In this document: positions 5,587 to 8,518 of the stretch, piece by piece
Layout of the letters: every line of letters starts with the position of its first letter
Position numbering within the stretch: the first letter of the stretch is position 1
Origin: Turicibacter sp.
GTDB lineage: Bacteria > Bacillota > Bacilli > MOL361 > Turicibacteraceae
Direction: 5' to 3'
Assembly (NCBI GenBank): GCA_030531025.1
Contig: JAUMTV010000129.1
Span: 1 to 8,518, forward strand
DNA: 8,518 bases
Notes under the pieces: generated by a model
The model's input: the letters and a program-made list of their open reading frames with translations, nothing else
Database searches by the model: none
What the model was told of the DNA's origin: nothing
Translations under genes and position numbers: made by a program

Positions 5587-5614
5587 AAAATGTACCATAT
5601 ATATGTTACATTTT
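5587..5614 (-). terminator. AT-rich inverted repeat after the exchanger pseudogene
   Basis: AAAATGTA (5587-5594) and TACATTTT (5607-5614) flank the self-complementary CATATATATG (5596-5605). On the minus strand it directly follows the TGA stop of the exchanger pseudogene and ends in TTTTTG, so a weak terminator is plausible. It also overlaps the predicted secG promoter, so an operator is an alternative reading. Confidence 0.45.
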
Positions 5615-5617
5615 CAA
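5589..5617 (-). promoter_or_regulatory. Possible secG promoter
   Basis: On the minus strand, TTGAAA (5617-5612) and TACATT (5594-5589) are separated by 17 bases and lie just before the secG ribosome-binding site. The -35 overlaps the TGA stop codon of the exchanger pseudogene. Both boxes lie in the inverted repeat described separately. Confidence 0.4.
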
Positions 5618-6257
5618 CCATTATTTAAGGATACAACTATAAAATAGAAATATATTCCAACAATAATTAATGAGGGTAAACAATAAGAAAATAAATTCTT
5701 TACTTCTTTTCTTAACAACATATAAGTTAAAATGATAGATTTACATAATCCTACTACGACAAGTAACGTATTTGATGTATCAGCAATTTCAAAAATACTA
5801 CCTGAAAGATAAAAAAGATCTGTTAATGCAATAATGCCAAAGTTAAATAAGTTACTTCCTACAATATTTCCTACTGCTAAGTCATAATTTCTTAATTTAA
5901 TTAAACTAATTAAACTTGTCATTTCTGGAAGTGATGTAGCCACCCCTAAAAACATTGCGCCAATAAATGAAGATCCAATTCCTGTTTGCTGTGCAATCTT
6001 ATCCGTAGTGATTGAAATCGAGAGACTTGAAATAATTATCATAATTTCAAAAAAAATAAGCTAAAAAATAAGCGCAGGTAAAGAACAACTCGATGTTTCT
6101 TCTTCTGAGTCTTCAGAATTCTCCTCCTCAGTTGATATAAATTTTAAATTAATATAATATAACATAGCAATAAAAATCGAAGAGATTCCAATATGGCCCA
6201 CTTTTCCCAAGCTTAAACTATAGAAACTAAATAATATAATTAAATAAATTATCGTAC

Positions 6258-6479
6258 TATATAGAAACAGATATGTATTTCATATTTTTATAACAGACTT
6301 GGTTGAGAAGCCGCTTTAATACTAAGACAGACTATCGTCCAGGGGTCACCTACCATGCGAAGCATGTTTCCTCAATTAGTAGGGAATGGGTCACCTAGCG
6401 ATTATCAAAGATAATCTAATCCTCCTTTGCTAGGGCTTTAAAAGTTTTCCGATATGAAAAACTTATCTGGACTTATATA
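6258..6479 (+). mobile_element. MITE-like repeat element (copy 3, long form) inside the exchanger gene
   Basis: A complete 222-bp copy, counting a TA at each edge, in the opposite orientation to the gene it interrupts. Its left 85 bases and right 40 bases closely match the 168-294 copy. Between GTCCAG (6337-6342) and the right-end hairpin it carries about 95 extra bases made of two similar structured units (6343-6384 and 6388-6435). GTCCAG pairs with CTGGAC (6467-6472), so the whole block sits on a closed stem. A short hairpin, GGTT-GAGA-AGCC (6301-6312), has a GNRA-type loop. No protein is encoded. Confidence 0.85.
6343..6435 (+). repeat. Two tandem structured modules within the long element copy
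   Basis: Unit 1 (6343-6384) and unit 2 (6388-6435) share one plan: GGGTCACCTA, one or two bases, a variable hairpin, CCTC, then TAGGG. In unit 1, CCTAC (6349-6353) pairs with GTAGG (6379-6383) around CATGC-GAA-GCATG (6354-6366). In unit 2, CCTAGC (6394-6399) pairs with GCTAGG (6429-6434) around GATTATC-AAA-GATAATC (6400-6416). The hairpins differ in sequence but both are perfect, which points to selection on shape. The GGG and CCTC blocks could pair as a pseudoknot. I do not recognise the family. Confidence 0.65.
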
Positions 6480-6709
6480 ATAATATTCGTTTTAGTATTT
6501 GACTTCCCAGTATGGTTAAAAAGCATATATTTCAAAAAAATCAAATTACCTATAGCTAAAATAAAAATATTAAACGCATTACTTCCTAAAATATTCCCAA
6601 AAGCTAAATCTGGATTATTTAACATAGTAATAGAAGAAATACTCGTAATCAACTCAGGAAGTGAAGTCACTCCTGCTATGACTGCGCCTCCTATTTTTGT
6701 TTGCTTATC

Positions 6710-6839
6710 TATATATAAACAGAAATAAAATCTACATTTATCACGACACACTAAATGTTTGATCGTTGTGCCGTGAAAGGCAGACTATAGTCCAGCTAAA
6801 AGTTTTTTACGATGTAAAAAACTTATCTGGACTTATATA
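6710..6839 (+). mobile_element. MITE-like repeat element (copy 4) inside the exchanger gene
   Basis: A complete 130-bp copy, counting a TA at each edge. It has the second left-end type, TATATATAAACAG (6710-6722), shared with the copy at 8467, and the standard right end CTGGACTTATATA (6827-6839). The left half differs from copies 2 and 3 and folds as CACGACACA (6742-6750) with TGTGCCGTG (6767-6775), allowing one mismatch. The right half has AGTCCAG (6789-6795) paired with CTGGACT (6827-6833) around a perfect 11-bp hairpin, AAGTTTTTTAC/GTAAAAAACTT (6800-6824). It separates the first 29 or so codons of the exchanger gene from the rest. Confidence 0.85.
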
Positions 6840-6924
6840 GTTGATCAACACATGATGAAATACGAACAGACGATAACACAACTACAAATGATAAAATTAA
6901 ATATTGTAGTAGTAGTGCTCCCAT

Positions 6925-8466: not shown

Positions 8467-8518
8467 TATATATAAACAGATAAGTATTCTACATCTAAGG
8501 TGGCAAACAAAAATACTG
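8467..8518 (+). mobile_element. Left end of a MITE-like repeat element (copy 5, cut by window end)
   Basis: TATATATAAACAGATAAGT (8467-8485) matches the left end of the 6710-6839 copy and is the closest match in the window to the reverse complement of the right end (TATATAAGTCCAGATAAGT), showing the terminal inverted repeat clearly. It interrupts the CNNM pseudogene and runs in the same direction as that gene. The right end lies beyond the window, so its length and contents are unknown. Confidence 0.75.

Follow-up and report, generated by a model that had tools for sequence, protein, structure and literature searches.

The two adjacent structured units at positions 6343 to 6435 of the window, the whole stretch of 8,518 nucleotides of Turicibacter DNA analysed here, are probably members of a family of small, nested mobile units that extends across the genus; in this instance they lie inside a miniature element of IS630 type inserted at TA. 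The double-hairpin shape of the units is real and under selection. Units occur within this carrier, in tandem arrays and singly in genes, where empty relatives of some filled sites can be recognized.

The carrier and its cargo

The element occupies positions 6258 to 6479 on the forward strand. It is a 222-base repeat with two units inside, subdivided into a left part (6258-6342), the units with their trailing triplets (6343-6438) and a right part (6439-6479). Unit 1, of 42 nt, lies at 6343-6384 on the forward strand and is followed by AAT (6385-6387); unit 2, of 48 nt, lies at 6388-6435 on the same strand and is followed by CTT (6436-6438). They score 56.2 and 57.9 bits, respectively, with the covariance model R1, with the caveat that both units are themselves part of the R1 alignment. 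The preliminary description of this region recognized two tandem modules with unrelated hairpins and that reading holds. The two form one repeat family, both inner hairpins are perfect (CATGC-GAA-GCATG with 5 bp in unit 1, GATTATC-AAA-GATAATC with 7 bp in unit 2) and the outer stems read CCTAC/GTAGG in unit 1 and CCTAGC/GCTAGG in unit 2, as had been stated. The suggestion that the modules might be cargo of an element was also well founded, the units sitting inside the IS630-type miniature element. It went unremarked there that they form only the middle of a longer repeat (6258-6479), of which the window has several copies, that the carrier is of IS630 type, and that units also insert alone into genes.

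The right end of the element (6439-6479, forward strand) consists of a hairpin and CTGGAC with a final TATATA. The CTGGAC is complementary to GTCCAG at 6337-6342, and in a diverged copy elsewhere (L043) this left/right pairing of GTCCAG with CTGGAC is replaced by GTGGCG/CGCCAC. Two more complete copies in the window, both on the forward strand, are free of units: one of 127 nt at 168-294, and one of 130 nt at 6710-6839 whose left half is diverged. Two cut copies, also on the forward strand, lie at the window ends. A right end at 1-53 starts, in the sequence as displayed, within a unit (GCTAGTAGGG-CTT), and a left end at 8467-8518, cut at the window end, resembles the left part of the copy at locus L010. 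Without units the carrier is 127 bases long (127-130 for the unit-free copies), and the number of units per copy runs from none to as many as eight or nine, the ends being of the same kind throughout.

A reverse-strand gene at 5614-6751, for a putative exchanger-like membrane protein, is split by two copies of the miniature element. The ortholog in genome G001 has an open frame of 334 amino acids and supplies the empty site, CGTAC-TA-ATAATATT, to set against the filled CGTAC-TA[...]TA-ATAATATT. The second interrupting copy is consistent with TA but diverged, so that the evidence for TA comes from two sites.

The ends of the carrier resemble those of an IS630-family insertion sequence of the genus. 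A carrier copy at locus L019 matches the IS630-like element L176 of G002 at 26 of 26 terminal bases on the left and 21 of 26 on the right. For the window copy at 6258-6479 the left end is identical to L176 at 25 of 26 positions and the last 26 bases agree with the IS630-like elements at 21, the corresponding values for the copy at 168-294 against L176 being 24 of 26 and 21 of 26. These IS630-like elements of G001 and G002 are about 1.18 kb long (five measured copies of 1179-1180 bases); L176 and L177 start with TATATAGAAACAGAAATGTATTTCAT and finish with GAAAAACTTATCTGTTTCTATATA, and the ORFs of L174 encode 172 and 177 amino acids. Since the carrier ends match IS630 elements of the genus the carrier is, judged by its sequence, an IS630-type miniature element. 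The IS630 catalytic domain (PF13358) gave ten matches, two in G001 and eight in G002, and a search of G003, G004 and G005 with the same domain gave no IS630-like gene. Units are present in these last three genomes, as are matches to the carrier ends, weak ones in the case of G004.

Unit architecture and covariation

The unit, of approximately 40-64 nt, follows a common plan: GGGTC(A/C)CC, the outer stem, an inner hairpin whose sequence is free, a stretch with TCCTC that stays unpaired, and TAGGG. Roughly three bases, in many cases AAT, come after it. Units were collected on the basis of GGGTCACCT, CCTC and TAGGG, the hairpin playing no part. This gave 74 distinct units, and in 64 the search motifs had no more than two mismatches. 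Three of the 64 were left out and the remaining 61 form alignment A1.

Over the nine pairs tested in A1, 91.9% of stem cells pair compared to 73.3% when the letters of the 3′ side are shuffled, and two-sided changes number 105 cells compared to 40.7; neither value is reached in any of 500 shuffles. Sliding the partner positions reduces pairing to 52.4% at most. The number of pairs with a two-sided change and the number of further pair types are not above the shuffles (104 and 110 of 500, respectively). Compensatory change is thus strong in both stems across 61 distinct units, which bears out the earlier proposal of a selected structure. R1 finds matches in all five genomes of the genus. Inner stems seen, each with its complement, include CATGC, GATTTCT, GATTATC, CATTTAC, CATTTCC, CTTGC, AGATTGTC and GTACGGG. 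A less strict set of 119 units, whose boundaries are loose and which includes a few false units, has an anchored stem of at least 5 bp in 71% as against 20% after shuffling. Exchanging halves among equally long units of that set still leaves 45% of hairpins at 5 bp, because many units have a common hairpin. The single-stranded DNA fold of the whole 236-base stretch is not exceptional (z -1.05), so the covariation signal sits in the units. The structure had not been assigned to an RNA family and Rfam agrees, with no match at the gathering score in the window and none at E ≤ 5 in 6200-6900.

Which strand folds was considered from several sides. Among 24 distinct triloop hairpins (32 hairpins overall) 15 have a GNA loop on the strand shown; GNA loops are very stable in DNA. 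The same strand has 23 wobble cells and five A·C cells, with 17 of the 23 wobbles in one column pair. Folding energy was set aside as a guide to the strand, there being no preference as DNA (lower for the strand shown in 30 of 61 units, for the other in 31) and the opposite direction as RNA (lower for the other strand in 39 of 61). The strand shown also carries TCACC and CCTCC, presumably as at the 3′ end of 16S rRNA, and the opposite strand GGAGG. For the pseudoknot between GGG and CCTC raised in the preliminary description, pairing was counted in two registers and reaches 93.4% and 95.1% of cells, but with hardly any variation on either side (none and one two-sided change, respectively), so that these counts speak neither for it nor against it.

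Distribution and insertion of units

With 103 candidates scored per genome, R1 matches number at least 101 in G001 and 48, 14, 38 and 23 in the other four genomes of the genus. In G007, of another genus in the same family, there are 16 matches at E ≤ 0.001 and 22 at E ≤ 0.1, and none occur in the remaining 54 of the 60 genomes searched. Wider searches matched six of 395 genomes at class level and five of 392 at phylum level, all among the six already found; we caution that searches over more than 40 genomes apply stricter filters and weak matches are lost. A blastn-type search with the whole element retrieved only the five genus genomes among 60, and the exact pattern is found in one contig, Turicibacter sp. 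UBA7094, among the named-genome contigs and nowhere in IMG/VR. Distant blastn against phage and plasmid records gave no match. The units of G007 (for example GGGTCCCCGCCCTTCCGTAGGAAGGTATCCTCCTTTGGTGGGC) keep the architecture with different letters. Nineteen of 20 fetched (L073, L078, L090, L096 and L098-L112) lie inside a longer repeat whose inverted ends resemble AGGGTACCTCTAATAA; the other, L084, is inside an ORF.

Among 91 unit arrays in fetched DNA both carrier ends accompany 22, one end 14 and neither 55, although the split contains chance matches, such as by eye the tRNA-like stretch of L126, and the fetched loci are a non-random sample of sites. The largest tandem arrays have 7-14 units. 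One in G004, running from position 497 of L137 and overlapping L036, was counted as 14 units and has no carrier ends.

Thirteen lone sites have an empty relative among the fetched loci, mostly another copy of an insertion sequence. The inserted block exceeds the unit or units by 3 nt at 11 of the 13, by 2 nt at site A and by 4 nt at site G. The junction differs in the empty relatives at sites C, F and N, and those at J and G share 75-91% identity. Site K, the only relative of which retains a remnant, one within-array match and three carrier-type rows were left out of the 13. The clearest case is a pair of ISL3 copies in G004, where the empty copy reads GCCGAGGGAGC and the filled copy GCCGA-GGGTCACC...TAGGGAAC-GGAGC; the flanks are 100% identical and the 44 nt insert splits the frame. 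In an IS3-type orfA the empty site is GGAAAT-GGAAAATG, with 45 nt inserted and best flanks of 96-100%, and in an IS3-type orfB it is GGAAAT-GAATTT, with 49 nt inserted. At the C-terminus of ISL3 in G001, G002 and G005 the empty site is CATT-TTAAATC; here 45 nt are inserted and the frame is open and continuous in L037, L152 and L154.

Ten target pieces were scanned, whether or not an empty relative of the target is known, and matches came from nine: ISL3, rve (two), IS66 transposase, IS66 Orf2, Mutator, RadC and HTH_Tnp_1 (two), with rve and HTH_Tnp_1 being IS3-type. The scan of the G007 target piece gave no match. Orientation within genes, read by hand, is sense at 14 of 17 assignable sites and antisense at three (I, J and N), several further sites being unassignable. 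AT directly precedes the unit at 15 of the 31 clustered sites, against a background of 0.10, a count that rests on a rough classification into carrier and lone sites, contains some chance matches and drops sites of the L033 type. A simple AAT target-site duplication was rejected, as several sites have GAT, CAT, TGA or CGA on the left and the triplet on the right stays AAT-like. The idea that units preserve the reading frame proved wrong for most sites read. Nine were translated. Only B and F (45 nt) stay open and in frame; the 49 nt at P cause a frameshift, and A, D, H, L, M and O have a stop within the unit or just behind it.

Individual loci gave further observations. At 1496-1541 of L162 (G005) a unit breaks the final residues of a RadC-like gene. 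The IS66 transposase gene of L143 has a TAGGG-AAT remnant where L144 and L146 have a unit, which looks like a deletion between short TAG repeats. At approximately 6083-6200 of L146 (reverse complement) what appears by eye to be the start of a group II intron (GTGTGC...) lies directly in a unit, itself seemingly within a transposase gene.

Origin of the units and relation to known repeats

The reading we favour, as likely to be correct, is that of nested mobile units. An IS630 transposase would probably, to go by the shared ends, move the carrier in trans with the units as passengers. Single units would enter new sites on their own with a preference for the position after AT, often within other mobile genes, and copies of those insertion sequences would then spread them. 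Array size would be altered by slippage or recombination. With the hairpin letters free and the shape kept, the simplest reading is that what is recognized in a unit is the shape it takes when folded as a single strand, most likely of DNA. Against the favoured reading stand the folding energies, which do not single out the strand shown, the crowding of wobbles in one column pair, the imperfect empty relatives at C, F, N, J and G, the three unit-bearing genomes in which PF13358 gave no match, and the hairpins that survive the exchange of halves. It is possible, if rather doubtful, that the unit, approximately 45-60 bases long, counts in its own right among the smallest mobile elements known, being recognized by shape and not by its letters, moved as such by an enzyme and able to colonize other mobile elements in nested fashion.

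Is another enzyme or another function responsible? It is unlikely that the units are REP-like and moved by a REP-associated single-strand (Y1/HUH) transposase. A hairpin with conserved foot sequences, in which letters vary and shape is kept, would suit such an enzyme, enzymes of the group act on folded single-stranded DNA according to the parts of the literature available, and Y1 genes are present in G001 to G004. Yet G005 has no Y1 match despite at least 23 units, R1 matches occur at only one of 14 Y1 loci searched (L059, about 1.2 kb from the gene), and the ends of 11 Y1 loci are by eye unlike the unit. Three listed Y1 ORFs have 154-157 amino acids and look like IS200. We similarly doubt that the units are functional RNA modules, serving mRNA stability, regulation or protein binding, whose spread is incidental. 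Such a role is compatible with the compensatory change in the stems, with the GGAGG of the opposite strand, which is like a ribosome-binding site, with the more stable RNA fold of that strand in 39 of 61 units and with an influence of BOX parts on nearby gene expression noted in the portion of that report available (PMC3049150). It fits poorly with transposase and RadC-like frames broken by lone units at scattered sites and with the variable presence of a unit among copies of one insertion sequence.

It is very unlikely that the cell skips units within genes, in the RNA or during translation, in the style of the bypass insertions of T4 gene 60 or yeast mitochondria, leaving the host genes working. 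The prevalence of sense insertions (14 of 17 assignable), the repeated ATG or GGN triplets on either side of many junctions and the occurrence of unit-bearing ISL3 copies several times within one genome could be taken that way. Set against this are the three antisense cases (I, J and N), mixed phase, sites B and F that are simply readable through, and intact copies of the insertion sequences able to supply transposase in trans; the repeated triplets, for their part, follow from the insertion preference of the units. There is no sign of the take-off or nascent-peptide features given for bypassing in the part of the account available (PMC5009743). Least credible of all is an ordinary minisatellite in a MITE, with units spread solely by tandem duplication and with the carrier. 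Long arrays of near-identical units are what it predicts, but it is contradicted by lone units that lack carrier ends and have precise empty relatives, and the different carrier of the G007 units also speaks against it.

An integron attC site was rejected by eye: the R box core site of attC is GTTRRRY and the unit ends, GGGTC and TAGGG, are not such sites. Rickettsia palindromic elements are reportedly short palindromic insertions inside genes; unlike these, unit insertions are often frame-shifting (44, 46, 49 or 52 nt) or carry stops. REP/REPIN sequences with RAYT are likewise, in the sources as far as available, short palindromic repeats of high copy number, whereas the Turicibacter units have two stems and form tandem arrays of one orientation, and no linked Y1 gene was found. 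The closest known kind, likened by plan and not by sequence, is the modular pneumococcal BOX element (boxA-boxB(n)-boxC) on a frame derived from an insertion sequence. As far as the available portion of the BOX report goes (PMC3049150), both consist of a pair of end parts and, between them, structured modules whose number varies, and in both the ends resemble a resident insertion sequence, ISSpn2 for BOX as opposed to IS630 in Turicibacter. The same portion counts, for one Streptococcus pneumoniae genome, 125 BOX elements with 422 modules, and 17 modules that stand alone, and it gives one boxB type between two kinds of end parts in S. suis (PMC3049150). In contrast to BOX, the Turicibacter units have free inner hairpin letters, and many are lone with precise empty relatives in transposase genes. 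RUP of S. pneumoniae, in that portion, is like the carrier short with ends like a resident IS630 transposon, but is a simple 107-bp repeat without the modules of the Turicibacter carrier (PMC3049150). The TA site of the carrier is a further point of likeness to RUP and other IS630-derived MITEs. A literature search, with most subscription papers outside its scope, found nothing that links Turicibacter with miniature inverted elements or IS630.

The elements described here make up a modular repeat family that is new but of a general kind already known, unusual in that the units are independently inserted and conserved in shape. No explanation is known for the way in which BOX-like repeats multiply their internal modules. 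One genus offers lone units, empty and filled near-identical copies of an insertion sequence (G004) and an IS630 relative of the carrier, so that how a 45-base structured unit moves is directly testable in Turicibacter.
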